Part shown: in pieces, positions 380 to 24,780 of the stretch
Layout: each line of letters starts with the position of its first letter
Position numbering within the stretch: the stretch's first letter is position 1
Assembly: GCA_937949535.1 (NCBI GenBank)
Contig: CALEDI010000003.1
Coordinates: 1 to 49,989 of the forward strand
DNA: 49,989 nucleotides
Direction: 5' to 3'
DNA from: an uncultured Lewinella sp.
GTDB taxonomy: Bacteria; Bacteroidota; Bacteroidia; Chitinophagales; Saprospiraceae
Translations under genes and position numbers: made by a program
Notes under the pieces: model-generated
Seen by the model: the letters and a program-made list of their open reading frames with translations, nothing else
What the model was told of the DNA's origin: nothing
Databases searched by the model: none

Positions 380-520
380 CTATGAAGATAAGTGTTCGGG
401 CCGTTTACGCAAGCTTTCTCCTTTAAGTTCGATGCGATGGGCTTTAGGGATGAGTCGGTCGAGGATGGCGTCGGCGACGGTGGGTTCGTCGAGGTAGGCG
501 TGCCATTTGGCGGCAATTTG
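380..520 (-). pseudogene. istB: istB 3' fragment (IS21-family transposition helper), truncated
   Basis: Read on the minus strand, the frame ending at a TAG (complement of 380-382) gives [20 protein letters not shown] followed by [20 protein letters not shown]. This is the well-known C-terminal end of the IstB ATPase, which helps the IstA transposase of IS21 elements. Similarity stops near 520, where the upstream region of the SNF2 gene begins, so about 45 of the usual 250 residues remain and there is no istA. The insertion is dead. Its right-end repeats are still present at 309-353. Confidence 0.82.
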
Positions 521-586
521 ATTTACACCTCCCCGCCCCCAACCAAACTTCCCCTATCTTCCCCCCTGCAAAAAGCAAAGCAGCAG

Positions 587-3148
587 ATGGCCAAGAAAAC
601 AGCTACGAAGAAAAAGAAAAAAGTCTCCTACCACCGCCAGCCAGAAGACCTGTCTAACCGAGAATACCAGTTGGAGCTGCGGCGGCAGTTTGGCCCAAAG
701 CAGCAATTTTCGTTGGAGAACCACGGAGACCACCGCGTTTGGTCAGATTTTACCGTAACCAACCTTGAGCGAAAAACCGCCTACCGCCTCGCCATCCGAG
801 GCACTGAAGTTGGGGATAACTTCTGCAGCTGTTACGACTTCCGAACCAACCGCCTCGGCACCTGCAAACACATAGAGTGGGCGCTCTTCAAGCTTGCCAA
901 CACCCACGGCAACAAACAGTACTTCAAAAAGCCGCCGCTCGTTGCGGCCTATTCCTCTCTGTACGTAGACTATCTGGGCGAGCAGCCCAACCTCCGCCTC
1001 CGCATCGGAGACGATCGGCGGGAAGACTTCGAGGCACTCGCTACCGATTACTTCACCGCCGACGGCGAACTCCTGCCCCACGCTTGGCTACAACTCGATG
1101 GGTTCCTGAAAAAAGCCCGCGCACTAGACGCAGGCTTCCGGTGTTACCCCGATGCGCTAGACCTCATCATCCAGCGGAGAGAAGACGAGCGCCGCAACAA
1201 AATAATCCAACGGGTAGACGCCGACCCCGCCAGCCTAGACAAGATCGTGAAGGCAACGCTCTACCCCTACCAACGCGAAGGCGCCCTCTTCGCCTTCCAA
1301 GCAGGCCGCGCCATGATTGCCGACGAGATGGGCCTCGGCAAAACCCTCCAAGCCATCGCCTCGGCCGAGTTGTTCCGGCGCGAGCTGGGCATCGACTCGG
1401 TCTACATCGTTTGCCCAACCTCGCTGAAGTACCAATGGAAGGCAGAAATTGAAAAATTCACCGACTCTACCGCCAGCGTTATTGAGGGCAGCCAAGTGAA
1501 AAGAAGGGAACAATACGCTAAAACCGATGCGTTCTACAAAATCCTTACCTACAACGTTGTCGCCCGAGACATCACCTACCTCAACAGCCAAAACCCCGAC
1601 CTCATCATCCTCGATGAGGCCCAACGGATCAAGAACTACGACACCAAAATATCCCACGCCGTAAAGCGGCTCGAAGCGCCGCACCGCATCGCCCTCACCG
1701 GTACGCCGCTGGAGAACAAAATCGAAGACCTCTACTCCATCGTGCAGTTCCTAGACCAGTACCGGCTCGGGCCGCTGTGGTTGCTCTACGCCCGCCACGT
1801 TGCCCGCGATGAGCAGGGCATAGTGCGCGGTTACCGCTACCTCGACGAAATAAAGGGCAAGCTCTCCGACCTCGTCATCCGTCGCCTCAAAAAAGACGTA
1901 GCCCACCAACTGCCGGAAAGGGTGGACAAGAACTTCTTGGTCCCGATGACCCTACCGCAGAAAGACATGCACGATGGCTACCAGAACGACGTAGCCCAGC
2001 TCGTCGCCAAATGGCGCCGCCACAACTACCTGAGCGAAACCGACCGCCAGCGGCTGATGGGGTACCTGCAACTGATGCGGATGAGCTGCAACAGCACCTA
2101 CATCGTAGACCAGAAAACCCACCACGACACCAAGATCGACGAGCTGTTCTACCTGCTGGAAGAGCGGCTGGCCGAGCCGGGGCAAAAGGTGGTCGTGTTT
2201 AGCCAATGGGCCCGGATGACGAAGCTCGTCGGGGATCGGCTAACCGAGAAGGGCGTCCCTTTCGCCAGCCTCCACGGTGGCGTGCCGAGCGCAAAACGAG
2301 GCGCTTTGTTGGATCGTTTTCGGGATGAAGACGATTGCCGGATTTTCCTAAGTACCGATGCCGGAGGTGTTGGGCTCAACCTTCAGCAAGCCGCCTTGGT
2401 CGTCAACCTAGACCTGCCCTGGAACCCGGCGGTGCTGGAACAGCGCATCGCCCGCGTTCACCGCTTGGGCCAGAAGCGCGGCGTGCAGGTCGTCAACCTC
2501 ATCAGCGAAGGCACCATTGAGCATCGTATGGTGCATACCCTGCGCTTCAAATCGCAGCTCGCTTCGGCTGTGCTGGATACGGGACAAGACAGCGTATTTA
2601 TGTCTGACCGGAAGTTCAGCGAATTCATGGAGCACTTGGAGAAAGTACAAGGCACGCCACTCGCCACTTCCGGCGGCGGAGAGCCCGTCTCGGACGACAA
2701 CCTAGAAAACCCCAAAGGGCAGGCCGCCGCGCCCGCACCGGAAGACGATTGGATGGACGAGCCAAATGCTGCCCCAACGCCATCTCCGGGGGGAGAAGCT
2801 GGCGGAACGGGACCAAATACTTCGCCCGATCCGGCGACTTCGGCGGAGAATGTTTCTCCAAAAACCAACCCTGCACCTGCGGCCCCGCCCCCCAATACAG
2901 TGCCCGAAACCCAGGCCAATGTGCCAGCTAAGGCCGCCGCTACTTCGGCGGCAGGTTTGGTCAGTGAAGGCGTAGGTTTTCTGGAGCGGCTGACCAAAAC
3001 ACTGGCCGACGAAGCGGCCACCCGCGCGCTCGTTGGTGAAATCACCGAAACCGATACGGAAGGAAAAACCTACTTGAAAATACCCGTAGAAAGCCAAGAA
3101 ACGGTCACGGGCGTCCTGAAATTATTGGGCGGCCTTTTTGGGCGGTAG
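587..3148 (+). CDS. SWIM zinc-finger SNF2-family DNA helicase/translocase
   Basis: 853 residues from the ATG at 587. The open frame runs further upstream to 392, but that part translates the antisense of the istB remnant and is not protein-like; the K-rich MAKKTATKKK start is the natural one. A SWIM zinc finger (C80-x-C82, C93-x-H95) is followed by the two RecA-like SNF2 lobes: Walker A GLGKT at about 249-253, DEAQ at about 343, TGTPLENK, and the QRIARVHRLGQ arginine-finger motif near 615. A Pro/Ala/Gly-rich linker of about 130 residues and a short C-terminal domain follow. Such proteins are ATP-driven DNA translocases, probably acting in repair or transcription-coupled remodelling. The linker contains one copy of the 17-bp motif (2873-2889), and another copy lies just after the stop. 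Confidence 0.9.
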   Translation: MAKKTATKKKKKVSYHRQPEDLSNREYQLELRRQFGPKQQFSLENHGDHRVWSDFTVTNLERKTAYRLAIRGTEVGDNFCSCYDFRTNRLGTCKHIEWALFKLANTHGNKQYFKKPPLVAAYSSLYVDYLGEQPNLRLRIGDDRREDFEALATDYFTADGELLPHAWLQLDGFLKKARALDAGFRCYPDALDLIIQRREDERRNKIIQRVDADPASLDKIVKATLYPYQREGALFAFQAGRAMIADEMGLGKTLQAIASAELFRRELGIDSVYIVCPTSLKYQWKAEIEKFTDSTASVIEGSQVKRREQYAKTDAFYKILTYNVVARDITYLNSQNPDLIILDEAQRIKNYDTKISHAVKRLEAPHRIALTGTPLENKIEDLYSIVQFLDQYRLGPLWLLYARHVARDEQGIVRGYRYLDEIKGKLSDLVIRRLKKDVAHQLPERVDKNFLVPMTLPQKDMHDGYQNDVAQLVAKWRRHNYLSETDRQRLMGYLQLMRMSCNSTYIVDQKTHHDTKIDELFYLLEERLAEPGQKVVVFSQWARMTKLVGDRLTEKGVPFASLHGGVPSAKRGALLDRFRDEDDCRIFLSTDAGGVGLNLQQAALVVNLDLPWNPAVLEQRIARVHRLGQKRGVQVVNLISEGTIEHRMVHTLRFKSQLASAVLDTGQDSVFMSDRKFSEFMEHLEKVQGTPLATSGGGEPVSDDNLENPKGQAAAPAPEDDWMDEPNAAPTPSPGGEAGGTGPNTSPDPATSAENVSPKTNPAPAAPPPNTVPETQANVPAKAAATSAAGLVSEGVGFLERLTKTLADEAATRALVGEITETDTEGKTYLKIPVESQETVTGVLKLLGGLFGR
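2873..2889 (+). repeat. Copy of the dispersed 17-bp motif (one mismatch), inside a CDS
   Basis: GCACCTGCGGCCCCGCC, in the low-complexity linker of the SNF2 protein, read as codons for A-P-A-A-P. See the motif finding. Confidence 0.7.
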
Positions 3149-3153
3149 TTGTT

Positions 3154-3170
3154 GGCGCGGCCGCAGGTGC
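3154..3170 (-). repeat. Copy of the dispersed 17-bp motif (exact)
   Basis: Exact GCACCTGCGGCCGCGCC on the minus strand, 6 bases after the stop codon of the SNF2 gene and outside any gene. Confidence 0.75.
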
Positions 3171-3255
3171 AAGGGGAGGTTTTAGGGGTGCGCTCTGTCG
3201 CGGCGGCTGTTTTTTAACTGGATTTAGTCCGGCCGCCCGCAGGCGTTGAAGGTGT

Positions 3256-3330
3256 GGATGCTCGCTGCGCTCGTAACCTCACCCCCAGCCCCTCTCCATC
3301 GGAGAGGGGAGCATGACATCGCTGCGGCTT
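3256..3330 (-). repeat. Hairpin element family A, inverted copy
   Basis: On the minus strand this copy reads GGAGAGGGG-type hairpin, GGGGGTGAGGTTAC and then ACGAGCGCAGCGAGCATCC. It matches the plus-strand copies at 3470-3553 and 14051-14129. Confidence 0.6.
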
Positions 3331-3469
3331 CGCCTTGCTAGATTGATTGTTTAGAATGAAAATTGTACGAATGCCCTTCATAGAAATACAAGCTCGAACA
3401 TGGCACACCTAACGCAATCTGCATAATAAGTAACTTCTAGCGAAGGCGAAGCCGCAGCGGTTTAGTTAA

Positions 3470-3553
3470 ACGAGCGCAGCGAGCAGAGCCGTCTCCCCTC
3501 TCCACCGGAGAGGGGTCGGGGGTGAGGTTACGAGCGCAGCGAGCAGAGCCGTC
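3470..3553 (+). repeat. Hairpin element family A flanked by 24-bp direct repeats
   Basis: The unit beginning ACGAGCGCAGCGAGCA occurs at 3470-3493 and again, identical over 24 bp, at 3530-3553. Between them is a perfect 9-bp stem, CCCCTCTCC/GGAGAGGGG (3495-3515, loop ACC), followed by TCGGGGGTGAGGTT. A related copy is at 14051-14129. The function is unknown. Confidence 0.65.
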
Positions 3554-3694
3554 CTCCAACGCCTCCCTCATGATTAAAGAAACGCAAGGATTTACTGGGC
3601 CTGCGAGCGTCCAGTTGGTGAATTTGCGCTAAAATAAAACTTAAGCAGCTAGCCGCCACTATCACCTCCTTATATATGGTCTTAACGGCAGATT

Positions 3695-3756
3695 CCTATT
3701 TTGAGCAAACTGATGGGTAGCGGCGAGCCGCTACCCATCAGTTTGCTCAAAACAGG
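3695..3756. other. Very long perfect hairpin upstream of recA
   Basis: Arms 3699-3724 and 3727-3752 are perfect reverse complements over 26 bp with only two bases between them. Three more outer pairs follow after one mismatch. No T-run follows that would make it a classical terminator. A 79-codon open frame through it is an artefact of the palindrome. Confidence 0.75.
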
Positions 3757-3878
3757 AACTCGCCGCCAGAACTACAAACATTTGTTTTATTTCAAACATT
3801 TTTTGTACGCAGTAAATTTACATTTAGCCATAAATAGACAAAAAGTGAAAATAATTTGCTTTTATTGCTGTCGAAGTG

Positions 3879-3909
3879 TTGTGTGGTATTGTTTGAGTGT
3901 TTATATTTG
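3879..3909 (+). promoter_or_regulatory. Bacteroidota-type promoter of recA
   Basis: TTG at 3879-3881 and TATATTTG at 3902-3909 are separated by 20 bp. This fits the TTG-N(19-21)-TAnnTTTG promoter read by the primary sigma factor of Bacteroidota. The predicted start near 3916 gives a leader of about 37 bases. I see no LexA-type palindrome. Confidence 0.6.
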
Positions 3910-3952
3910 TACCATCGCAAAACAAAACAAGTTCTTTTAAACAGCAGCTATT

Positions 3953-5017
3953 ATGGCAAACAAAGAAAAGGATACCGCCGCAAAAATGAAGGCGCTCCAA
4001 ATGACGATCGACCGTCTTGACAAAGCCTACGGAAAAGGCACCATCATGCGCCTCGGCGAGTCGCAGGCCGCCAATGTGGAGGCCATCCCAACTGGTTCTC
4101 TCGGGCTAGACGTTGCCGTCGGCATCGGCGGCTTCCCTAAAGGCCGGATCATCGAGATCTACGGCCCAGAATCTTCCGGTAAAACTACCCTCGCCATTCA
4201 CGCCATCGCTGAGTGCCAGAAGCGTGGCGGCATCGCCGCCATCGTCGACGCCGAACACGCCTTCGACCGTTTCTACGCCGAAGCCCTTGGCGTAGATACC
4301 GACAACCTCCTCATCAGCCAGCCCGACAACGGAGAGCAGGCCCTGGAGATCACCGAAAACCTCATCCGCTCCGGCGCTGTCGACATCCTCGTCGTTGACT
4401 CCGTTGCGGCCCTCGTTCCTCGCGCAGAGATAGAAGGCGAAATGGGCGACTCCAAGATGGGCCTCCAAGCCCGCCTCATGAGCCAGGCCATGCGTAAGCT
4501 CACCGGTACCATCGGCAAAACGGGATGTTGCTGCATCTTCATCAACCAGCTCCGCGAAAAGATCGGCGTTATGTTCGGCAACCCCGAAACCACCACCGGT
4601 GGTAACGCCCTGAAATTCTACGCTTCCATGCGGATTGATATTCGCCGCTCCGGCGCTGCCATCAAAGACAAGGAAGGCAACGTGATCGGTAACCACGTGA
4701 AGGTGAAAGTAGCCAAGAACAAACTGGCCGCTCCTTTCCGTATCGCTGAGTTCGACATCATGTACGGGCAAGGCATCTCCAAGACAGGAGAGATCGTAGA
4801 CATAGGCGTAGACCTAGACATCATCAAGAAATCCGGCGCATGGTATGCCTACGGCGATGCCAAAATCGCGCAAGGCCGCGAAGCGGCCAAGACCTTCATG
4901 ATGGACAACCCAGAAGTGGCCGCCGAAATCGAAGCCCGCGTAAAAGCCAAACTGATGGGCACCGAAGAAGAAGAGGCACCCGAACTGGACAAGGCCCCGG
5001 ATGCCGTTGAAGCCTAG
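3953..5017 (+). CDS. recA: RecA recombinase
   Basis: 354 residues, the normal length. The protein shows Walker [10 protein letters not shown] (about 70-78), the [10 protein letters not shown] Walker B strand, the MRKLTG helix, the [29 protein letters not shown] loop region of RecA in parts, and an acidic tail ([17 protein letters not shown]). RecA forms the ATP-dependent filament on single-stranded DNA for homologous recombination and repair. It is transcribed alone from the promoter at 3879-3909. Its stop codon lies inside a 14-bp duplication created next to a small repeat element (5018-5179). A hairpin with a T-rich tail at 5256-5294 is the likely transcript end, so the mRNA would carry the element in its 3' untranslated part. 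Confidence 0.98.
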
Positions 5018-5179
5018 GGTGTGTAGTCTGCCTATAAATTAGTCCGCTGACTATCATCAAAACGCGAAGCGTTTTTATAAGCCCCTCCCCCGTGGGGAGG
5101 GGTTTAGCTGCGCTGCTGCCTACGGCGGTGGGGAGGGGGTTTGCGCGCGGAGACAATTCATTACAGATTACATACCCTG
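5018..5179 (+). mobile_element. MITE-like element B, copy 1 (after recA)
   Basis: About 161 bp. The ends are GGTGTGTAGTCTG and CAGATTACATACC, imperfect inverted repeats. The inside carries a CCTCCCC/GGGGAGG hairpin and no gene. CGTTGAAGCCTAGG occurs on both sides (5005-5018 and 5180-5193), which looks like a target duplication; the recA stop is part of the left copy. Copies 2 and 3 are at 46330-46493 and 49641-49784, all in the same orientation. Confidence 0.75.
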
Positions 5180-5255
5180 CGTTGAAGCCTAGGCTTCCCA
5201 CCAAGAAGTTTTACTTGTTATCGTTTTAGCGACGATAATCCCTGAACTGAAATCA

Positions 5256-5294
5256 GTGCCCGTTTCTACTCGTAGAAGCGGGCACATTTCTTTT
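5256..5294 (+). terminator. Probable recA transcription terminator
   Basis: A 14-bp stem (GTGCCCGTTTCTAC with GTAGAAGCGGGCAC, one G-T pair, loop TC) spans 5256-5285 and is followed by ATTTCTTTT. Confidence 0.65.
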
Positions 5295-5421
5295 GGCTCA
5301 GCTGCTTGAAAATAAACAGAATTGAAAAAAAACGAGCATACAGACAACTAACCTTCCTTCCCAAGCCTTTAGAAAGGGTTACCACCGACCGAACAGCGTC
5401 GTGTATAATCCCCCTATCTGA

Positions 5422-8400
5422 ATGAACGGATCTTTCCGCGACTCCTGGAGTAAGCTTTCCCCCACTGAACGTGACGTAGTTACGGCTCTCAGCATCGTGT
5501 ATGAGGAGCGTTCCGTATTAGACCTCTCCCGGCTACTGAACAAAATCGGGCTGCGCCCGCCAGTGGGCGAATCTCGTTTCACCCACGCGGGAACCGAAGA
5601 GATCATCCATAAAGTCTACGAGCTTGGGGTAGTGATAAAACACGACGACCGAACTTGGCGCATCAACACTGATTTTTCCGAAGAGATCATGCGCCTCGCC
5701 CACCGGCGGCCAGACTTTGAGCACCTGCTCAATGAAGTGCGCCGAGAGCTACCCTACAAAACGTACTGGCAGCCTTCGAGTCATTTAGCACTGATGCGCG
5801 AAATCCGGATCGCTTTTTATTTGCAGAATGAGTCTGGCTTTGACCGGCTCCAGAACGAGACCGAGACATTTTACCCAGATAAAGCCAAAGCGGGCCTTTT
5901 CATTGATCCGCTCTTTGGCTTCTTTGAGCCGCGTTGGGTGGAGCAATTGCCGCCCGCTTGGCAGGAAATCAATGTGCGCAAAGCCTTCCGCCGTGCCATC
6001 CGGGAGATGGAGCCGCTGGATGCGTTGGTTGAGTTCCTGGAGCAACACGAAAACATCCGCGAAGGCGTCGCTGGCCCGCTGCGTGAACTACTCACCGAAG
6101 CCTTCGTACTTCAGGGCGCATGGAGCCGCCTTCGCCTGTGGGGAGATTTGGAAACCGACGAGTGGCGCAAAGCTGCCATCAGCCTGATTTACCACGTACT
6201 GCGCGATGACGACGAAGGGGCTGCGGCTTTCATCGAAGATGTCCGTAAGGGCTATCGCCGCGACTACGAAGACAAATTCCCCGTTCACCTTTCGGGCTAC
6301 CTCTATTTGCTGTCTTTGCTTCGTCATGGAGGCGTAAAGAGCGCCGAAAAAATTGGGCAGCACCTAGAGAACATGGACCCGACGCACAACCTGCGCCTCG
6401 GCGGAACATACCTCGTTTTCCAAGCCCTTTTCGCCTACCTGCGCAACGACGAGACCGCTCAGGTTATCGCCGACGATGGCCTACTCCGTACCGAAAACAA
6501 CGCCTTCACGTTTACCTTCCACGCCATGTACCGGATGTGGACGGACAGCTCCGCAAACCCAGCAACCGAAGCTTACCTTGCTGAGCTTGATGCGCTACGA
6601 GACAAAGCCCAAACCAACGGTTACCGTTGGGTAGAGATGGAGCTTACCCGCGTCTTGGCCGTGCGCCACCCCAACGAAAAAGCCCGCAAGGCTTTCATGG
6701 GCCGGGCTGAAACCCTAAGCAAAGAACTACACATCTACTCCCTAGCCGATGCGATGCCCCGCATCGAGCCCTGGGAGCGCGCACTGGAAGTATTGGCCAG
6801 CATGGGCAACCAAGAACAACGCGCAGAAAAACGGGCCAAAAAGACCGCCCGCTTCGTCTGGTTTGTAGACTTTGAAGCGAAAGAATTGGAGCCTCGCGAA
6901 CAGACAATGGCCAAGAACGGAACCTGGTCTAAAGGCCGCAAGGTTGCCCTAAAACGGGTAAAACAAGGCGATGTAGCCGGCATGACGCCGCAAGACGTCA
7001 CCGTAGCCCAAGCCATTGAAGAAGACTTTAGCAAGTACCACCCCAACGGCCATTACCAGATTAAATACGAGAACGCCTTATTGGCCTTGGTTGGCCATCC
7101 CAACCTTTACCTAAAGCAAAACCCGGCAGTGGGTGTAGACTTGGTACGGCGCAATCCGCAGTTACTGATTGAGGAAGGAGACAACCGCCTTTACCTACGC
7201 TTCGCGCAGGAGTTTGAAGGTACTGGCGTACAGGTAGTGAAGGAAACCCCAACTCGCTACCAAGTAATTGAGGTGAACGATAACCACAACAACATCCACC
7301 GCCAAATAGGGGATGGGCTCGAAATACCGAAGCGTGCCCGCCACCGCCTAACCGAGGTGAGCCGCAACCTCAGCAAGATCGTTGAAGTGCAGAGTACCCT
7401 CAATGGCGTAATCGATGATGTAGACGAAACCAAGGCAGACCAACGGACCTACGTTCACCTGCTCCCGATTGGGGAAACTTTTAAAGTGGAGTTCTTCGTG
7501 AAACCACTTAGGGAAGAAGACCAATACTTCAAGCCCGGCAAAGGCCGCAACAAAGTAATCGGGGATACCGACGGCCACCGACGCCTCGCAGAGCGCAACC
7601 TCGCCAAAGAGATTGAAGCCGCCGAAAACGTAATCCTCGCCTGCCCAACCCTCCAACGGATTGTTCACCGCGACTACGAATGGCAGGTAGACGAAGTGGA
7701 AGAATGCCTGAGCATCCTGCTCGAACTACAGCCCGTTCGTGCGCTAGACCAGATCGTGTTGGAGCACCCTCGGGGAGAACGGATCCGTTTGGTTGGCAGC
7801 GTAGATTTTGGCGACCTATCCCTTGGCGTAAAAGAAAAAGCTGGTTGGTTCGACGTAGAAGGAGAACTGGTAGTAGACGACAACCAGGTCATCAACTTCC
7901 GCGAACTAATGGAAAAGGTAGCGGAGAACGAACAGAGCAAGTTCATCCAGCTCAGCGAAGGGCAATACGTTGCCCTCACCGAAAACCTTCGTCGTAAACT
8001 GCGCGAGATGGAAGGCTTGATGAGCCAGGGCAAAGATGGCCTCCAGCTCCACCCCCTCGCAGCGGGTATCCTAGACGATGTGGCCGACCAACTCGGTGGT
8101 TTCGAAGCAGACGTTGCTTGGCGAGAGAGCCTCCAACGCATCCAAAACGTAAACCGGACCATCGCGCGCGTACCGTCTACCTTCCGGGCGGAGCTGCGGC
8201 CTTACCAGCTAGACGGCTTCCGCTGGCTGATGCGCTTGGCAGATTGGGGCGTAGGAGCCTGCCTTGCGGATGACATGGGATTGGGTAAAACCGTTCAGGG
8301 CCTCGCAATGCTGCAAGCACGCGCAGAGCTCGGCCCCGCACTGGTCATTGCACCTGCATCCGTGACTAGAAATTGGGTGCGTGAGTCTGCGAAGTTTGCG

Positions 8401-9558
8401 CCTACGCTCAACCCCGTTTTGCTTGGCCAGGGAGACCGCAAGGAAGTCATCGGTGCCGTTGGCCCCTATGATATGCTCGTGGTTAGCTACGGCCTCTTGC
8501 CCTTTGAAGGCGAAGCCCTCGCGGCGAAGCGTTTCGGTACCATCATCCTTGATGAGGCCCAAGCGATCAAGAACCGGGGCACGAAACGCAGCCAAGTGGC
8601 GATGAGCCTTCAGGGCGATTTCCGAGTAGCCACCACCGGTACGCCCATTGAGAACCACCTCGGGGAACTTTGGAACCTCTTCCAGTTTCTCAACCCTGGC
8701 TTACTCGGCAGTTTCAAGCGTTTCAACGAGAAGTACACCGTCCCGATAACGAAGAACAACGACAACGAGCGTCGCCAGCAACTGCGCCGGCTCATCCAAC
8801 CCTTCATCCTCCGGAGACGGAAAGAAGAAGTGCTGGAAGAACTGCCACCGAAAACGGAAGTCACCCTCACGGTGGAGCTCTCCGACAAGGAGCGGGCTTT
8901 CTACGAAGCCCTCCGCCAGCGCGCCCTGGAGAGCATTGACGACAGCGACGGCCAAAACCGCCGCTTCCAAATCTTGGCGCAGTTGATGAAGCTCCGCCAA
9001 GCAGCTTGCCATCCGCAGATGGTAGACCCGAATGTTGATATTGGTAGTTCCAAGCTGGAACTACTGGCCGAAACCGTCCGAGAAATTACCGAAAGCGGCC
9101 ACAAAGTGCTCATCTTTTCCCAGTTCGTTCGCCACCTCAAGCTGGTGGAGAAATGGGTACAGGACGAAGGCATTGAGTACCAATACCTCGACGGCAGCAC
9201 GCCGGGCAAGAAGCGAGACGAGGCCGTGCAGGCTTTCCAGCGAGGCGAAGGCGACGTGTTCCTCATCAGCCTCAAGGCAGGCGGAACGGGCCTTACCCTC
9301 ACGGCAGCCGACTACGTCATCCACCTCGATCCGTGGTGGAACCCCGCCGTGGAAGACCAAGCAAGCGACCGCGCGCACCGCATCGGGCAGCAGCGCCCAG
9401 TTACCGTGCTCCGTTTCGTGAGCGAGAACACCATCGAGGAGAAGATCGTCCAACTCCACGCCAAGAAGCGGGATTTGGCGGATAGTTTGCTGGCCGGTAC
9501 GGAGCAGAGCGCTTCGCTTTCTGCTGATGACTTGCTTGATTTGATTAAGTTTGGGTAA
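5422..9558 (+). CDS. Large SNF2-family DEAD/DEAH-box helicase
   Basis: 1378 residues. The first 900 or so are not a recognised catalytic domain; a K/R-rich segment lies near 475-520. The SNF2 core is at the C-terminus: DDMGLGKT (about 949-956), DEAQAIKNRG (about 1044), TTGTPIENHLGELW, LRRRKEEVLEELPPKTE, and DRAHRIGQ (about 1316), which completes the helicase C lobe. The protein is an ATP-dependent DNA translocase, likely in nucleoid or transcription-complex remodelling. It differs from the helicase at 587 in lacking the SWIM finger and in its long N-terminus. The ATG at 5422 is the first in frame. It lies a few bases after TATAATCCCCC and has no TAnnTTTG box. Confidence 0.9.
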   Translation: MNGSFRDSWSKLSPTERDVVTALSIVYEERSVLDLSRLLNKIGLRPPVGESRFTHAGTEEIIHKVYELGVVIKHDDRTWRINTDFSEEIMRLAHRRPDFEHLLNEVRRELPYKTYWQPSSHLALMREIRIAFYLQNESGFDRLQNETETFYPDKAKAGLFIDPLFGFFEPRWVEQLPPAWQEINVRKAFRRAIREMEPLDALVEFLEQHENIREGVAGPLRELLTEAFVLQGAWSRLRLWGDLETDEWRKAAISLIYHVLRDDDEGAAAFIEDVRKGYRRDYEDKFPVHLSGYLYLLSLLRHGGVKSAEKIGQHLENMDPTHNLRLGGTYLVFQALFAYLRNDETAQVIADDGLLRTENNAFTFTFHAMYRMWTDSSANPATEAYLAELDALRDKAQTNGYRWVEMELTRVLAVRHPNEKARKAFMGRAETLSKELHIYSLADAMPRIEPWERALEVLASMGNQEQRAEKRAKKTARFVWFVDFEAKELEPREQTMAKNGTWSKGRKVALKRVKQGDVAGMTPQDVTVAQAIEEDFSKYHPNGHYQIKYENALLALVGHPNLYLKQNPAVGVDLVRRNPQLLIEEGDNRLYLRFAQEFEGTGVQVVKETPTRYQVIEVNDNHNNIHRQIGDGLEIPKRARHRLTEVSRNLSKIVEVQSTLNGVIDDVDETKADQRTYVHLLPIGETFKVEFFVKPLREEDQYFKPGKGRNKVIGDTDGHRRLAERNLAKEIEAAENVILACPTLQRIVHRDYEWQVDEVEECLSILLELQPVRALDQIVLEHPRGERIRLVGSVDFGDLSLGVKEKAGWFDVEGELVVDDNQVINFRELMEKVAENEQSKFIQLSEGQYVALTENLRRKLREMEGLMSQGKDGLQLHPLAAGILDDVADQLGGFEADVAWRESLQRIQNVNRTIARVPSTFRAELRPYQLDGFRWLMRLADWGVGACLADDMGLGKTVQGLAMLQARAELGPALVIAPASVTRNWVRESAKFAPTLNPVLLGQGDRKEVIGAVGPYDMLVVSYGLLPFEGEALAAKRFGTIILDEAQAIKNRGTKRSQVAMSLQGDFRVATTGTPIENHLGELWNLFQFLNPGLLGSFKRFNEKYTVPITKNNDNERRQQLRRLIQPFILRRRKEEVLEELPPKTEVTLTVELSDKERAFYEALRQRALESIDDSDGQNRRFQILAQLMKLRQAACHPQMVDPNVDIGSSKLELLAETVREITESGHKVLIFSQFVRHLKLVEKWVQDEGIEYQYLDGSTPGKKRDEAVQAFQRGEGDVFLISLKAGGTGLTLTAADYVIHLDPWWNPAVEDQASDRAHRIGQQRPVTVLRFVSENTIEEKIVQLHAKKRDLADSLLAGTEQSASLSADDLLDLIKFG

Positions 9559-9654: not shown

Positions 9655-10938
9655 ATGTCGTCAAAGAAAACAAACATCTTCATTATTGGTGCAGGCCCCG
9701 GTGGCGCAGCTACCGCCCTTCGCCTCTCCTACCTCAACATCCCTTGTGTCTTAGTAGACAAGGCGACCTTCCCTCGGGATAAGGTCTGTGGGGATGCGCT
9801 ATCTGGTAAGGTTCCGACCTTGCTTAACCGGTTAGATCCGGCTATCATGGAGCGGTTTCGGCAACGGTTCACCCCCATTGATGTATGGGGAATCCGCTTC
9901 ATTCCGCCCAGCAAGAAGCTGATTGAACTGCCCTTCAAGGTCGGTTATGAGCGCGTCCCAGACGCAGCCCCCGGCTACGTCTCCAAACGAATAGATTTTG
10001 ACGCCTTCCTCATTGAAGAAGTAAAACGACGAGACAACATAGAGCTTCGCCTCGGCACCGAAATTGGTAGCTGGGTAAAAACGGCCGAAGGCTATACGGT
10101 TACCACCAAAGACAAGTCGGAAAGCTGGGACTGCCGCCTACTGGTAGACGCCAGCGGTGCCCACTCCCGCTTCAGCCGCAAAGAAGCAAAACAGGAGATG
10201 GACCACGACCACTACGCCGCCGCCGTGCGTGCCTACTGGAAAGGAATCACTGGTTTCCATAAAGACAACTTCATCGAGCTGCACTTCCTAGAGAAGTACA
10301 ACCCCGGGTACTTCTGGATATTCCCACTACCAAACGGAGAAGCCAACATCGGCTTGGGGATGCGCTCAGACATCGTAAAGAAAAAAGACATCAACCTACG
10401 CGAAGCCTTAGACGAAATCGTCGCCTCAGACGAATTCAAGGACCGCTTCAAAGATGCCGAACAGATTGACCCAACCGTTGGCTACGGCCTCCCGCTGGGC
10501 TCCAAAGACCGTGTGCTTTCAGGAGACAACTACCTCCTCGTCGGAGATGCAGGCCACCTCATTGACCCCCTAACGGGCGAAGGCATCGGCAACGCCACCT
10601 ACTCCGGCTTTATCGCTGCGGAGCTGGCCGAAAAGTGCTTAGCCGAAAACCGTTTCGACGCTAAGTTCCTCGCTGATTATGATGTCCGGATTGAGCGCGT
10701 ACTCCGCACAGAACTCCGCCTCAGCTACCGGATGCAACAGATCATGCAAATAAAATGGCTAACTAATTTCCTTACCGGCATCGTCGCAGCCAACCCTAAG
10801 GTGATTGAAGTACTCTGTAGAATGTACACCGACTTTGAACTGCGCAAACAATTGGTAAAACCAATGTTCTGGTGGAAGCTTTTCCGAGCTAAATCTGGTA
10901 AGCTTCCCGCAATAGATTCTCCAGTGTCGGAGCAATGA
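9655..10938 (+). CDS. Geranylgeranyl-reductase-family FAD-dependent oxidoreductase
   Basis: 427 residues. The N-terminus has the FAD-binding GAGPGGAATA fold and DKATFPRDKVCGDALSGK, typical of the geranylgeranyl reductase/halogenase-like group. GDAGHLIDPLTGEGIGNA near 290-310 is the second FAD motif. Members reduce isoprenoid double bonds or hydroxylate quinone precursors. In Bacteroidota, similar enzymes sit in menaquinone, carotenoid or lipid pathways, but nothing here tells the substrate. A one-gene transcript is likely: a short leader in front, a terminator at 11042-11079 behind. The ATG at 9655 is preferred over the frame starting at 9551, which is in a different frame. Confidence 0.88.
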   Translation: MSSKKTNIFIIGAGPGGAATALRLSYLNIPCVLVDKATFPRDKVCGDALSGKVPTLLNRLDPAIMERFRQRFTPIDVWGIRFIPPSKKLIELPFKVGYERVPDAAPGYVSKRIDFDAFLIEEVKRRDNIELRLGTEIGSWVKTAEGYTVTTKDKSESWDCRLLVDASGAHSRFSRKEAKQEMDHDHYAAAVRAYWKGITGFHKDNFIELHFLEKYNPGYFWIFPLPNGEANIGLGMRSDIVKKKDINLREALDEIVASDEFKDRFKDAEQIDPTVGYGLPLGSKDRVLSGDNYLLVGDAGHLIDPLTGEGIGNATYSGFIAAELAEKCLAENRFDAKFLADYDVRIERVLRTELRLSYRMQQIMQIKWLTNFLTGIVAANPKVIEVLCRMYTDFELRKQLVKPMFWWKLFRAKSGKLPAIDSPVSEQ

Positions 10939-11041
10939 CATAAAAAATACGTTAATTTATTACTAATAAAGTAACAAACGGCCCTCAACAAGGGTTAAAG
11001 ATTTAGTTGATTAAGTTTCATATACTAGTGAGTGTAAAGTG

Positions 11042-11079
11042 AGCCTCCGACCCTATTTGATGGGTACGGGGGTTCTTTT
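11042..11079 (+). terminator. Terminator after the flavoprotein gene
   Basis: The stem CCTCCGACCC / GGGTACGGGGG has a short loop and is followed by TTCTTTTTTT. Confidence 0.65.
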
Positions 11080-11105
11080 TTTGAGTCAGGTAGTGGCTGC
11101 CGCTA

Positions 11106-11214
11106 AAGGGATGCTCGCTCCGCTCGTGAGTTAGGCAAAGTAATTTCACTCAAATTTGGTTTACTGCCCAGCAGCACAGATTTTGCCACCAGACTACTTG
11201 ACTATCTGACTACC
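11106..11214. repeat. Repeat fragments upstream of the methyltransferase
   Basis: GATGCTCGCTCCGCTCGTGAG near 11113-11133 is a degenerate piece of element family A. AGACTACTTGACTATCTGACTACC at 11191-11214 is the reverse complement of the GTCAGATAGTCAAG phrase that also occurs at 28068-28111, 39592-39650 and 41242-41267. Confidence 0.5.
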
Positions 11215-20722: not shown

Positions 20723-20830
20723 GGAACGTGGTGACTTTATCCGATGCAACCATATTTATGGCAGCTTTCACTAAGGAGCAGCTTCCCAAAGGTATTTGAA
20801 ACTGGTAACTCCTAAAAATGAAAAAGAGCA

Positions 20831-20867
20831 GTAAACTCGATACAACGCGAAGCGTGATCGAGTTTAC
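20831..20867. terminator. Hairpin downstream of the globin gene
   Basis: GTAAACTCGAT (20831-20841) pairs with 20857-20867; an inner ACGC-GAA-GCGT stem caps it. On the minus strand TTTTT follows at 20821-20825. It is a plausible end of the globin operon transcript. Confidence 0.6.
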
Positions 20868-20917
20868 TACCCTTATAAAAGTAATGTATTCAGCTAAGTC
20901 TTCGTCTTAGTAGAAGA

Positions 20918-21388
20918 CTACTTCCAGAATTCGTACCATTTCTTCTCGGCTGGTGGAGCCGTCTTAGCAGGAACGGATTCTGCGGCGTCGATCATAGTGG
21001 TGGCCATTACGCCATAAACTTCCGTCCATGCCGCTTTAACCTCTGGGGTGAACGCCTCGCCCAGTCCCGCGTCGAGGGTGCCAAGCAGGGCTGCGCCCAC
21101 GTCGTCGTAGTGGCTGGAGGTTACGCCATAATCTACATGACGACGCCCCAGCCCTTGCAGGGCAGGCACAAGGGTGTCGAGGTCGTTCAGGCCGCGTACC
21201 GCGACGACCAGCATGTCGCGAAGTTTATTCCGCTGACCAGCCATTTTTTCTTCATCCTGCGGAAAGATGGCTTTCAGGGTAGGATTGCGTTCCATCAGCT
21301 TATCGTAGAAGATAACCATCGCGTCATCAGCGATAGGAACGACTTTTGCCCAAGAGTCTTGGACGAGGGATATTGTTTTAGCATCCAT
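20918..21388 (-). CDS. Single-domain globin of the flavohemoglobin lineage
   Basis: 156 residues. The globin domain aligns with the heme domain of Hmp-type flavohemoglobins: Tyr28 in IFYDKLMERNP is B10, Gln52 is E7, His84 in GRRHVDYGV is the proximal F8 ligand. This Tyr/Gln distal pair is the one used for NO dioxygenation. The FAD reductase domain normally fused behind it is missing; the gene instead ends in a spacer and KKWYEFWK, an aromatic-basic tail that could rest on the membrane. It is the last gene of a four-gene operon whose first gene encodes a reductase. The NO role is inferred from the lineage and needs the reductase partner. Confidence 0.9.
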   Translation of the reverse strand: MDAKTISLVQDSWAKVVPIADDAMVIFYDKLMERNPTLKAIFPQDEEKMAGQRNKLRDMLVVAVRGLNDLDTLVPALQGLGRRHVDYGVTSSHYDDVGAALLGTLDAGLGEAFTPEVKAAWTEVYGVMATTMIDAAESVPAKTAPPAEKKWYEFWK

Positions 21389-21411
21389 TGTACTTTAATT
21401 TAGTTGGGCGA

Positions 21412-21888
21412 CTATTTATAGTAAAATACCACCCAGATGTGAAGAAATGATAGCACCGTGATCACCACCGTACCCAGAATGTGAATGACGTACCACAGCC
21501 GGAAGGCGTTTTGCCCCCAAGCCCGAATCACGTTCGTATTCAGCAAGCCTAGAAAGAAGGTGAAGAAAAAGGTGATGGCTAAAATCATCAGGTAGCCAAA
21601 GCCGAGATTATGGGCATGGACATAAAAAGCCAGTGGCATCAATGCGCCACTCCACTTGTGAATACTGAGTAGTCGGTCACTCGCTTTTCCGTGTGGCTTG
21701 CGCAAACGTACCAGGGTAAGCAACCACTGAAAAAGGATGTAGAGAATCAGGAAAAGCCCCGACCAACGCCGGTACTCTTCCTGCACTTGCAATTCATGCA
21801 GGAATGGAACGGGAATGGATAAAGCATACTGGGCGATGAAGGCCAGCAACAACCCGTATCCGATGATTTTAGTAATACGATCCGACAT
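21412..21888 (-). CDS. Membrane di-heme cytochrome b-like protein (ferric-reductase type helices)
   Basis: 158 residues with about five hydrophobic helices. His77 and His91, and His136 and His150, are each spaced 13 residues apart (H-x13-H) on two helices; this is the bis-histidine pattern that holds two stacked b hemes in ferric reductases, NADPH oxidases and related proteins. No flavin or NAD domain is present. It would carry electrons within the membrane between the c-heme proteins outside and cytoplasmic partners. The start lies 3 bases after the stop of the c-heme lipoprotein gene. Family name uncertain; heme ligation is inferred from the spacing. Confidence 0.7.
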   Translation of the reverse strand: MSDRITKIIGYGLLLAFIAQYALSIPVPFLHELQVQEEYRRWSGLFLILYILFQWLLTLVRLRKPHGKASDRLLSIHKWSGALMPLAFYVHAHNLGFGYLMILAITFFFTFFLGLLNTNVIRAWGQNAFRLWYVIHILGTVVITVLSFLHIWVVFYYK

Positions 21889-21891
21889 TCG

Positions 21892-22728
21892 TTAGATGTT
21901 ATCGACGAAAGCCATGATTTCCTTGAAGGTTTCTGCGCCAACCTCCTCGTTGACAGCTTCCAGGAAGAAGTCTTTTGCGGGAACGACGTAACCTTCACTG
22001 GACCACTTACCCGTGATCTCTGGAACGTCCTTTTCTTTGAATGCACGAACTTCCTGGAGGAAGGTTTCGTAGGTGTTCGCTACGCCTTCTCGGTATACTT
22101 TGACCATAGCAAGCGTCTCGTTCATGGTCAGGGAATCCTCGGGGTACGTCCAAGTAGTTGCTCCCATAATGTCGCCCAGTGCCCAGTCGGTCTTGGAAGT
22201 GTTGGGGTGGTCGTTGTGGCAGCTAACACAGGGTGCTGCGCCGGCAAAATCTGGGAACATCGCCGTGTAGAGCTCGTTCTCTTCGTCGTAGAAGAATTCC
22301 GGTTCTGCCGTTTCACGTATGGCCTCGAATTTTTCAGCCTGAACACCAGTGAATTTGTTCGCCTTCACGATCGGAAAGTCAGAGCCGAGGTAGAGTCCGA
22401 GAGGAACATTAGACTTCTGAATTTCATTCGATGTTCCGCGTAGGAATAGCGCGGGAAGCGGACCGGCCTCTACATCTGCTTTTTCCCAATCTTCGTGGAA
22501 GCCGATGCCAGCAGTTTTACCGAGACCAACGATCTTTTTGGTGTAAAGCGTACGGGTTTTTTCGTTTTCGTGAGCGATGATGCGGAACGCGTCCTCAACC
22601 GAGAGTACTTTAGCTTCCGTTGGAGCGGTTTCTGCAAAAGGATCCGCGCCGCCGCCGCCGCCACAGGAGGTGAAAAAGGCTCCTGCCACTAAGGTGGTGA
22701 AGACAATGAGCAATGAAATTTTTTTCAT
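21892..22728 (-). CDS. Tll0287-like (DUF3365) c-heme lipoprotein
   Basis: 278 residues. A signal peptide ends in the lipobox FFTSC (Cys22), followed by a Gly tract. The body matches the Tll0287-like domain (DUF3365), a PAS-like sensor fold that holds one covalently bound heme: CVSCH is at 167-171, with NDHPNTSKTDWALGDIMG behind it. Such domains occur in periplasmic sensors and electron-transfer proteins. Here it is free-standing and probably lipid-anchored on the outside of the inner membrane. It lies 30 bases after the reductase gene and 3 before the cytochrome b gene, so translation is likely coupled. Confidence 0.85.
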   Translation of the reverse strand: MKKISLLIVFTTLVAGAFFTSCGGGGGADPFAETAPTEAKVLSVEDAFRIIAHENEKTRTLYTKKIVGLGKTAGIGFHEDWEKADVEAGPLPALFLRGTSNEIQKSNVPLGLYLGSDFPIVKANKFTGVQAEKFEAIRETAEPEFFYDEENELYTAMFPDFAGAAPCVSCHNDHPNTSKTDWALGDIMGATTWTYPEDSLTMNETLAMVKVYREGVANTYETFLQEVRAFKEKDVPEITGKWSSEGYVVPAKDFFLEAVNEEVGAETFKEIMAFVDNI

Positions 22729-22758
22729 AATAAGCCTATTTAAAAGTGGATGATTAAA

Positions 22759-24522
22759 TTATTTCCGCATCTTCTTGATCGCCTCGCCTATGGCCTCCAC
22801 GGAGTGGGTCTTGACGTCCCCGTAGGGATCCTGACCGCCATTGGCGTAATCGATGATGGAAGTGACGGGAATCGTGTCCTTCATTAGGTGGGCCACCTCT
22901 GTTACGTGATTGCCATGAAAGTCATGGCACTGTAGGCAGGTAACCCATTGGTTGGAATGAATCAGCTCAGCATGGGAAATATCTAAAGGGTCATCGGTCA
23001 ATTCGGTATCCTGATGACAGTGGGAACAAAAGGTTAAATCGGTAACCGTAAGACGGACGCCCTGGTGCTCTGAATGGCAGCTTTCGCAGCGTTCCACTCC
23101 AATGGCTTGGCGGGCGTCTTTAAATCTTGGTTCTTTGAACCGGTGCATCGGGTGGCGGTCTGTTGGTCTTTTGTGACAGCTTTCACATTTTTTATTGTCG
23201 ACGTTGTTGGAGCCGAAGGTGACGGCTTGCGCTCGGTTACCAATTAAGTGCTGAAAATTGGCTTGTAGTTGCTGGGCTAGGGTCCCTTTTGCCAGCGAAT
23301 GGCAATCTTCACAGCTTAGTGTTTCATGTCCCGTATTCATAGGGCCAGGTGAAATCATATTGGTTGGTGCCGGAAAGGTCATCGCCCCAAGCAGAAGCAT
23401 CCCAAAAAAAAATCCAGCCATCAAAGCCAACCGGCGGTTGCCTCGGCGTTTTGATCCGGTGTTAGACGGGATATCACGGCAGTCAACGCTCACATCCCCC
23501 GACATGGGGTAAGCACAACAAGTCAGAATATAGCCCTCTTTTTTATCTTTATCACTCAGTGCTAAGTCAACGGTTTGTTCAATTTTTCCGCCCAGCAATT
23601 TCATCTTACACGAAGAGCAAACGCCTTGCTTACAACTGTAAGGCAAGTCAACACCGCCCGCCAGCGCGCCGTCTAGTATCGACTGGTTTGGTTTTACTTC
23701 AATGGTCTCCCGCTTACCGCCGGGCAGCAATAGTACCACCCCACGGCTTTGGCCCGTCTGCACTGAACTCAGCGCAACGTCGGCCTGGAAGTATTCCGCA
23801 TTCACCTGGCTAGCTGGTACACCGAGGCCGGCGAAGGCCTGTTTGGCGTTGTCCATCATTGGCTTTGGCCCACAGATGTAATACTCCGCCGTATCATAGC
23901 GCAGCGGAAGCCCCTGGATGAGGGCATAAATTTTTTCGTGGGTAAGCAAGCCCGTTTCCCCCGTCCAGCCTGAAGGGGGATACTGCAAGCAGTTGATTAG
24001 TGTAAAACGGTCGTTAGCCGTCAGGCCAGAAAAATAGTCCTTAAAGATGATGTTTTCCTCATCGCGGTTGCCGTAGATCAGCGTCGCCTTTGAAAGTGGT
24101 TCTCCTTCCAGAATATGACCAATCATCGACCGGATGGGCGTTATGCCACTCCCCCCTGCAACGAACACATATTGCCTAGCACGAAGGGGATTAACGGACA
24201 AACGAAAATTTCCCTCCGGCACCTTGATGTCAACTGTCTGACCAACCACCGCTTCGTCCACGAGGTAGCTAGACATTACCCCACCGGGAACCTTTTTTAC
24301 CCCAATCCGCAAACCATCTTCACCGGGTACGGAACAGATAGAATAGCAACGGCGTACGTTTTCGTTTCCCGGCATCGTCAGTGTCAAATACTGGCCTGGG
24401 TCGTATCGGAACGCCTCCTGCATCTTTTCAGGGATGCCGAATGTGATTACCCGAGCACTGGGTGTCGTTTCGGTAATGGCCTCAATACGTAAACGATAAG
24501 TATTCTCCACGGTAAAAGTCAT
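22759..24522 (-). CDS. Ferredoxin-NAD(P)H reductase / 2Fe-2S / pentaheme cytochrome c fusion
   Basis: 587 residues in one chain. An FNR-type flavoprotein (RCYSIC 58-63 for FAD, GGSGITPI 123-130 and CGPKPMM 217-223 for NAD(P)H) is followed by a plant-type 2Fe-2S ferredoxin (Cys297, 302, 305 and 335 or 336). A single membrane helix (about 364-384, preceded by SKRRGNRR) leads to a c-type domain with five CxxCH sites (404, 446, 479, 499, 529). The positive-inside rule puts the flavin and 2Fe-2S part in the cytoplasm and the hemes outside, so one protein would move electrons from NAD(P)H through the membrane. The reductase half resembles the Hmp/phenylacetate-oxygenase reductase type. First gene of the operon, with a palindrome at its start. 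Confidence 0.9.
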   Translation of the reverse strand: MTFTVENTYRLRIEAITETTPSARVITFGIPEKMQEAFRYDPGQYLTLTMPGNENVRRCYSICSVPGEDGLRIGVKKVPGGVMSSYLVDEAVVGQTVDIKVPEGNFRLSVNPLRARQYVFVAGGSGITPIRSMIGHILEGEPLSKATLIYGNRDEENIIFKDYFSGLTANDRFTLINCLQYPPSGWTGETGLLTHEKIYALIQGLPLRYDTAEYYICGPKPMMDNAKQAFAGLGVPASQVNAEYFQADVALSSVQTGQSRGVVLLLPGGKRETIEVKPNQSILDGALAGGVDLPYSCKQGVCSSCKMKLLGGKIEQTVDLALSDKDKKEGYILTCCAYPMSGDVSVDCRDIPSNTGSKRRGNRRLALMAGFFFGMLLLGAMTFPAPTNMISPGPMNTGHETLSCEDCHSLAKGTLAQQLQANFQHLIGNRAQAVTFGSNNVDNKKCESCHKRPTDRHPMHRFKEPRFKDARQAIGVERCESCHSEHQGVRLTVTDLTFCSHCHQDTELTDDPLDISHAELIHSNQWVTCLQCHDFHGNHVTEVAHLMKDTIPVTSIIDYANGGQDPYGDVKTHSVEAIGEAIKKMRK

Positions 24523-24548
24523 TTTTACGTAACAAACGTACGTAAAAA
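24522..24548 (-). promoter_or_regulatory. Palindromic operator-like site at the start of the redox operon
   Basis: TTTTTACGTA (24522-24531) and its exact reverse complement TACGTAAAAA (24539-24548) are separated by 7 bases. The site begins at the start codon of the first operon gene, and two AAATACTTA direct repeats follow. A regulator bound here would block transcription or translation start. I do not recognise the binding protein. Confidence 0.55.
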
Positions 24549-24780
24549 AATACTTAGATAAATACTTAAAACGAACAAAAGCAACTACTCAAAGCAACAG
24601 AAAAGTTCGAGTAAATAATTTTAAACCGCAAAAATTAAAAAATGCCAAATTTAAAATTGATAAACAGCTAAATTGTCGTGAAATAAATCTTATTTGACAC
24701 CAAATAAAAAATCAACTACAAGCCGACACGACCTTTCGGTTCAGTTTCGTAAGACGGCAAAACCGTACACAGGCAGGTTG
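24549..24780. other. AT-rich regulatory gap, no gene
   Basis: Upstream region of the redox operon. On the minus strand a TTTTG and a TAAGTATT about 19 bases apart could be its promoter. No coding frame is credible. Confidence 0.4.

Follow-up and report, generated by a model that had tools for sequence, protein, structure and literature searches.

Why should a globin be encoded in one operon with proteins whose motifs suggest an electron route through the membrane? The question is posed by four adjacent genes in a 49,989-nucleotide stretch of contig CALEDI010000003.1 from an uncultured Lewinella sp. (the window, hereafter), which encode a fusion of an FAD- and NAD-binding reductase with a pentaheme cytochrome c, a Tll0287-like c-heme lipoprotein, a membrane protein with four conserved histidines, and a single-domain globin. 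We regard this set as a real, conserved and nitrate-linked redox module of the globin-plus-reductase kind that protects against nitric oxide (NO), with an added transmembrane heme branch. The reading that we favor, at a probability of about one half, is that of a nitrate-regulon operon that counters NO, possibly along with further reactive nitrogen species, formed in the course of nitrate assimilation. An initial annotation had seen in the same genes a split flavohemoglobin, the reductase half of which had moved to a second protein and gained a 2Fe-2S cluster; its description of the gene set held up on reanalysis, and its account of their origin did not.

The four genes lie on the minus strand, as do the operator-like site and the hairpin described with them, and when the open reading frames (ORFs) were re-read, the positions and the gaps of 30, 3 and 23 bases between them were as annotated; they make up a single operon. 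The order is the 587-amino-acid fusion (22759-24522), the 278-residue Tll0287-like lipoprotein (21892-22728), the 158-residue four-histidine membrane protein (21412-21888) and the globin (20918-21388). An operator-like site, CTAAGTATTTTTTTACGTA, occupies positions 24539-24557, 16 bases upstream of the first start codon. Directly 3′ of the globin gene, a hairpin followed by a T run (20824-20874) is the probable operon terminator; it was spotted by eye, its stem being longer than the type sought by our short-loop terminator scan, and its stability of -29.6 kcal/mol (z -8.5) was equalled by 0 of 200 shuffled sequences. That scan, and a scan for sigma-70 promoters, returned no signal exceeding shuffles.

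Conservation of the set was examined with the fusion protein as query against genome contigs from 84,980 species. Of 178 pattern matches, 135 were relatives, and the best 80 loci among these were analyzed; their ORFs were searched for the components in five phmmer runs (E up to 1e-3), and the alignments cited below take in the window sequence as well. All loci are labelled as Bacteroidota, except one labelled Chloroflexota (L060) and one labelled only as a bacterium (L052). The Tll0287-like and pentaheme parts are present at 80 of 80 loci, the membrane protein at 79, the reductase at 78 and the globin at 64. Counts for the reductase and pentaheme parts are favored by design, because the query joined these two, and those for the other three proteins are independent of the query. 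Conservation on this scale rules out a chance clustering of the four families, which are kept together in many genomes rather than a few. Where both parts occur (78 loci), reductase and pentaheme cytochrome are separate genes in 67 cases and fused in 11, and because the two are fused in places, they are likely to belong to one electron chain. Four loci (L044, L046, L051 and L052) have a cytochrome c assembly gene between them. Most often the genes run globin, Tll0287, membrane protein, reductase and pentaheme; the fusion comes first in the window and at the 11 other loci, among which only L001 has a globin, placed last.

Of all the parts, the globin is the least constant. At 58 of the 64 globin-bearing loci it is a single-domain protein encoded with the module, and at the other six a double globin is encoded on the opposite strand some kilobases away. 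Among the 16 loci that lack it, the sequence of L002 stops 63 bases past the membrane protein gene, the available stretches of L013, L044 and L060 start or stop at the module itself, and the genomes of L013, L044 and L056 do contain a module-type globin. The locus labelled Chloroflexota, from a metagenome-assembled genome (MAG), carries pentaheme and Tll0287 genes at 5983-7025; the reductase is not on this stretch, which ends within the Tll0287 gene. At L032, a phage-integrase-family gene (9678-11126) lies 0.7 kb past the module, a hint of mobility.

The fusion protein contains FAD_binding_6, NAD_binding_1 and Fer2 domains above the Pfam cut-offs, then a hydrophobic stretch and five CxxCH motifs, in accord with its annotation. 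Its PaaE-like FAD- and NAD-binding part (residues 1-250, positions 23773-24522; Pfam residues 12-227) is followed by a plant-type 2Fe-2S domain (residues 269-339, positions 23506-23718; PF00111, 61.5 bits), whose ligands Cys297, Cys302, Cys305 and Cys335 are present in 79 of 79 aligned rows, by a probable single transmembrane helix read by eye (residues 365-382, positions 23377-23430), and by the pentaheme c domain (residues 393-571, positions 22810-23346). The reductase matches Escherichia coli PaaE at 211 bits (36% identity over 347 aligned positions), Hcr at 106 bits (26% identity) and six Hmp reductases at 56-77 bits, with 67 bits to that of E. coli. In a tree of FNR-type reductases, the six Hmp proteins form their own group with 100/100 support, while module reductases, PaaE and Hcr are not separated from one another. 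Among NCBIfam models, PaaE (TIGR02160) scores 274 bits, under its curated cut-off of 420.8, and Hmp (NF009805, cut-off 432) scores 118 bits. By these comparisons the reductase is PaaE-like in architecture and is not PaaE itself. Since a 2Fe-2S domain is normal in the PaaE family, there is no Hmp half that need have moved.

The globin, too, was compared with Hmp. Its sole Pfam match above cut-off is PF00042 (65.9 bits, cut-off 22), and when it is aligned to E. coli Hmp, Tyr28, Gln52 and His84 fall on Y29, Q53 and H85, residues that we take to fill the B10, E7 and F8 roles, as the initial annotation had it. These three and Tyr94 are invariant in 59 of 59 single-domain module globins, double globins (>200 amino acids) being omitted from this row. 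An Hmp-like heme pocket is what would be found had an Hmp broken in two and its reductase acquired 2Fe-2S and c-heme domains, but the best Protein Data Bank (PDB) matches of the globin are 3s1i and 3ubc, and 3s1i (HGbI) scores 104.7 bits versus 58.5 for Hmp (1gvh). The Hmp model gives 81 bits, and the one-chain arrangement of globin and FAD/NAD domains that characterizes Hmp is absent, the two being separate genes here. In the globin tree, the module globin stands beside HGbI-type single-domain globins and six Hmp globin domains split off with 100/100 support, although the tree has many long branches, HGbI among them, and weak forks. Module globins are not monophyletic (two changes), with SD_L104, SD_L103 and halves of double globins falling among or beside them. 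The globin is thus assigned by sequence to the single-domain F-type, HGbI-like group. Trees and scores for both proteins largely refute the split flavohemoglobin, which we now consider scarcely tenable, and the module probably arose without the splitting of an Hmp. Nor is a separate Hmp elsewhere the regular partner: the window's genome, 88% complete, shows this globin and no other globin-domain protein, and so no Hmp, and an Hmp-sized globin protein was found in 2 of 30 module genomes tested (G417 and G419; sample defined below).

The globin tail KKWYEFWK, suggested earlier to hold the protein at the membrane, is real and recurs as KKWYEVWK in L001. The double globins examined end in KPWWKVW or KPWWKFW, and some other module globins begin with a basic amphipathic piece; most have neither feature, so that tethering would be lineage-specific at best. 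The double globins themselves (about 292-296 amino acids) lie near globin-less modules at L006 (11596-12486), L008 (8987-9865), L015, L059, L065 and L078, in Aquimarina. At L005, a second, more divergent globin gene (3680-4159) adjoins the module globin. Two further Bacteroidota proteins, from L116 (442 amino acids) and L119 (488 amino acids), appear by eye to combine a globin at the C terminus with parts that resemble a 2Fe-2S ferredoxin and a nucleotide cyclase, possibly forming a globin-coupled cyclase with redox input.

The remaining parts carry motifs that fit a heme route. In the membrane protein, the two H-x13-H pairs noted earlier are H77/H91 and H136/H150, all four invariant in 79 of 79 sequences, and the predicted model is all helical (pLDDT 93.7). 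The ferric-reductase-like family PF01794 scores 14.9 bits against a cut-off of 28; the model has no Foldseek match at E 0.001, and the profile has none among PDB sequences. A second fold comparison returned cytochrome b6 (Z 9.3, rmsd 3.2, 124 aligned), a value lower than that of talin (10.7) and inside the noise range given for helical bundles; a designed bundle, too, outranks or equals cytochrome b. Conserved histidines and the helical model support the identification of this protein as a probable di-heme b-type membrane cytochrome. The pentaheme proteins have five CxxCH motifs in 81 of 81 cases (one has six) and six further invariant histidines in 81 of 81. The predicted structure of this part is of low quality (pLDDT 49.5). 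That it acts as an NrfA-like nitrite reductase is possible but less likely: the window sequence has CxxCH motifs and no CxxCK, and its profile resembles those of octaheme nitrite reductase and NrfH only weakly (E 0.014-0.031).

The third protein matches PF11845 (31.3 bits, cut-off 24.1) and contains one CxxCH and a lipobox-like Cys22, presumably the lipid site, in keeping with its annotation as a Tll0287-type c-heme lipoprotein. CxxCH is found in 79 of 81 such proteins; 75 of 81, the window's included, have no second cysteine beyond residue 35, and six have one at varied places. A search of PDB sequences with the profile gave nothing meaningful (best E 0.49). In the available text of PMC12889525, stand-alone Tll0287 proteins are described with Cys/His axial heme ligation, a mode that would not be available to the module protein because the second cysteine is absent.

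The initial annotation made no mention of nitrate, yet nitrate-assimilation genes lie on 50 of the 80 loci, in protein clusters labelled NrtA, NrtB, NasC, NarK, NirB and nitrite reductase (each label from one representative, and NrtA/B partly from context). NasC at these loci is a protein of about 1,170 amino acids with a C-terminal NirB-type FAD and BFD part, and a Crp/Fnr-type gene occurs on 33 of the 80, upstream of the globin where the order was read. A count of all short palindromes in upstream regions, taken from 78 loci plus the window, put TAAGTA-N4-TACTTA first, with exact copies in 45 of 79. The 80 loci, 1.02 Mb in total, contain 98 exact sites, at 52 loci, versus 0.18 expected from dinucleotide frequencies, a very large excess, even though the motif was chosen as the most frequent one and loci related to each other are not independent. 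These sites precede globins (42), nrtA (17), crp (11), nasC (6), Tll0287 genes (6, at loci where this is the first gene) and narK (4), with 12 elsewhere. The palindrome also lies upstream of 6 of 6 double globins, with 0 or 1 mismatch. Two neighborhood features may be recorded here. In the first 3 kb of L017, L033, L043, L069 and L075, multiheme c, 4Fe-4S and DsrP-like genes (NF045798, 418 bits) are directly upstream of the module's Crp/Fnr gene, and at about 3.3-4.2 kb of L006, L059, L062 and L065, in Aquimarina, a PilJ-domain periplasmic protein (c28) is encoded beside the module.

Thirty module genomes were then compared, comprising those of 29 of the 30 loci without nearby nitrate genes (L014 omitted) and that of L016. 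With module-type globins taken at 199 bits or more, and a 481-residue piece of NasC in the L010 genome, the NasC fusion and the module-type globin each occur in 18, both in 16, NasC only in 2, the globin only in 2 and neither in 10 (p 1.2e-4, confounded by descent). In a sample of 395 genomes of the phylum, the NasC fusion is present in 33, whereas a globin of at least 190 bits is present in the window's genome and one other, indicating that the module globin marks the module together with nitrate use, not nitrate use alone. The module's membrane and Tll0287 proteins were found there in the window's genome only, a rarity that may be overstated because at most 9 and 6 candidates per genome, respectively, were scored; four weak matches (E 3.5e-5 to 7.9e-4, 31-62 residues) and a partial one in G301 (E 1.7e-21) were excluded as non-members.

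These data bear on whether nitrate or nitrite reductase is the main recipient of the reductase's electrons, with the hemes as an overflow. Such a task has been proposed for the flavoprotein Flp of Bradyrhizobium japonicum, which the accessible portion of PMC4724949 reports to be required for growth on nitrate, and the module shares operators with nitrate genes. However, NasC carries a NirB-type FAD and BFD part at its own C terminus, both in the window's genome and in relatives (scanned in one representative), which makes an external donor less likely, and 10 of the 30 genomes keep the module with neither the NasC fusion nor the module globin. We consider this alternative very improbable.

The window's own genome (4.09 Mb, 88% complete) has its nitrate cluster on a different contig, C93, with genes for a NirB-like protein, a PilJ-domain histidine kinase, a response regulator, an ABC transporter, an Alginate_exp protein, a NasC fusion and rubredoxin/NIR-domain proteins. 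The exact 19-mer given above occurs at two places only in the genome, before the module operon and before nasC. With up to three mismatches, one place is added (two mismatches), some 40 bases upstream of the probable GTG start codon of nirB, and the reversed 19-mer, used as a control, has zero places. The relaxed pattern TAMGTA-N6-TACKTA has five places, three of them being those at the module, nasC and nirB, against one for its reversed control; in six genomes together, it has 15 against 5. Another genome of the genus, where no module was found, contains three relaxed sites, two of which lie at the nasC and nirB promoters, and this suggests that in this genus the operator belongs to nitrate genes and is carried by the module. 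In the L001 genome, the N6 form occurs at no place and the N4 form precedes the operon. The N4 palindrome of the relatives (up to two mismatches) has three matches versus 2.9 expected, none at the window's operon, and its matches on the nitrate contig are at chance level (3 versus 0.83 expected). Shared operators and gene neighborhood point to control of the globin together with the assimilatory nitrate reductase.

How might such a unit work? In the mechanism that we propose, NAD(P)H would reduce the FAD of the PaaE-like reductase, and the 2Fe-2S cluster would pass on single electrons. One branch would keep the cytoplasmic globin ferrous, allowing it to turn NO and O2 into nitrate. The other would lead through two b hemes of the four-histidine protein to the tethered pentaheme cytochrome, and end at the c heme of the periplasmic Tll0287-like lipoprotein, which would remove or sense NO or nitrite-derived species. 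The idea in the initial annotation that electrons can go to the globin or across the membrane is compatible with a c-heme fusion beside the four-histidine protein, as expected of a route from NAD(P)H to the periplasm. The sequences show the operon, its conservation, the cofactor motifs, the fusion of reductase and pentaheme parts and the operators in common with nitrate genes; the flow itself and its direction, the service of the reductase to the globin, NO as substrate and the periplasmic task are deduced. Among the roles it listed, NO defense is favored by the nitrate-gene context and shared operators. An NO-dioxygenase activity of the globin is suggested by its residues, by the nitrate link and by a precedent in Bradyrhizobium, where, according to the available parts of PMC4724949, NasC is able to produce NO, and protection comes from the single-domain globin Bjgb together with Flp. 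Separate FNR-like reductases have also been proposed as electron donors of single-domain globins (PMC3820574, consulted in part). A stronger version, in which clearance is two-sided, the globin oxidizing cytoplasmic NO while the same electrons reduce periplasmic NO or nitrite-derived species at an open-site Tll0287 heme, seems to us doubtful. Were it true, the heme-c Cache fold would gain an enzymatic role, and a globin system would be wired to the cell exterior.

Several observations weigh against an NO-protection role. The Glu of the Hmp proximal site (presumably E137) is not conserved in module globins. The link between globin and NasC tracks descent, 7 of the 10 genomes with neither being those of L035-L039, L041 and L042, mostly Flavobacteriales MAGs. 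In three genomes of the same taxonomic order that have NasC (G033, G091 and G391), relaxed sites are not near NasC, so the N6 operator is not general. The 19-mer was chosen post hoc, by comparing the module and nasC promoters by eye; its genome-wide scarcity, the nirB site and the sites in the same-genus genome are independent of that choice. The one stand-alone Tll0287-type protein whose testing is described in the accessible text of PMC12889525 bound NO weakly and looked redox-like.

Further, 10 of the 30 module genomes have the other parts while lacking both the globin and NasC, which suggests that the membrane branch has a role of its own. That branch may even be the main one, a transmembrane reductase that draws on NAD(P)H and, by way of its 2Fe-2S cluster, two b hemes, five c hemes and the Tll0287 heme, serves an extracytoplasmic acceptor or redox balance; in nitrate users the globin would then be an add-on, shielding this machine or the cell against NO or O2. 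The same 10 genomes would then be expected, as would Tll0287 and pentaheme parts at 80 of 80 loci versus 64 for the globin, and a porin-like gene lies inside the operon at L036, L038, L041 and L042 (its cluster includes an Alginate_exp protein, named by Pfam for the representative L075 but not for L036). Most module genomes, however, have the set among nitrate genes or under the same operator, and the first scan, made with the reductase-pentaheme protein, favors those two parts. We rate this reading, a main membrane machine with an add-on globin, as possible, if on the unlikely side.

A sensing unit offers another use for the periplasmic heme: the Tll0287-like protein would read NO or redox state, the reductase and hemes would reset it, and the globin would tune cytoplasmic NO. 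A heme-c Cache domain fused to signaling modules binds NO with slow release (PMC12889525, in its available parts), and the cysteine needed for the stand-alone Cys/His ligation is absent from 75 of 81 module proteins. However, Pfam finds no signaling domain in the window's Tll0287-like protein, the stand-alone members tested so far looked redox-like, and a C59A variant of one still bound NO weakly (same source and extent), so that absence of the cysteine does not by itself make an NO sensor. We judge a sensing unit quite improbable, and retain NO protection as the preferred role.

Among known systems, the closest is Bjgb-Flp-NasC of B. japonicum, as described in the available text of PMC4724949. 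It likewise pairs a single-domain globin with a separate FAD/NAD(P)H reductase under control shared with an assimilatory nitrate reductase, an ABC transporter and NarK, and from that description the membrane branch is absent. In the module, by contrast, the reductase has a 2Fe-2S domain and is fused with, or encoded next to, a pentaheme cytochrome, with the four-histidine protein and the Tll0287 lipoprotein alongside; NasC has its own fused reductase; and the nitrate cluster of the window's genome has a PilJ-type kinase and a response regulator, at most putative counterparts of NasS-NasT. Hmp shares the Tyr, Gln and His heme pocket and an FNR-type reductase as the likely partner, but the module distributes these over two proteins, neither Hmp-derived by the trees, and adds a 2Fe-2S domain and c hemes. 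HGbI of Methylacidiphilum and other single-domain F-type globins are the closest solved relatives of the module globin; HGbI binds lipids (PMC11203436, seen in part), and fixed gene neighbors and a nitrate operator are features of the module. The GlbN-ferredoxin reductase operon of Legionella, controlled by NsrR, as cited in the consulted portion of PMC3820574, also combines a globin and a ferredoxin reductase under nitrogen-oxide control, but has a truncated globin and two genes, with no heme route described there. Like members of the Tll0287 or heme-c Cache family, as treated in the available text of PMC12889525, the module lipoprotein is a stand-alone PF11845 protein with CxxCH; unlike them, it mostly lacks the second cysteine (75 of 81) and is tied to a pentaheme cytochrome and nitrate genes. 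That text does not mention the terms operon, globin, lipoprotein or Bacteroid, and among the matches listed from open-licence PMC literature, no title or abstract start describes this gene set.

The module thus unites a globin with its likely donor and with an unexpected transmembrane heme route in one regulated unit, and because they come as one unit, the question of which donor serves such globins becomes directly testable. For a heme-c Cache protein it also provides a metabolic context and a constant partner, namely the pentaheme part found at 80 of 80 loci, and the operators described here serve as marks of nitrate genes in Bacteroidota. As for its immediate surroundings in the window, the operon is flanked upstream by a gene for a DUF6807 protein and downstream by one for a SnoaL/DUF6616 protein. 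At some distance, in positions 392-9558, recA is flanked on both sides by genes for SNF2-type helicases, two in all.

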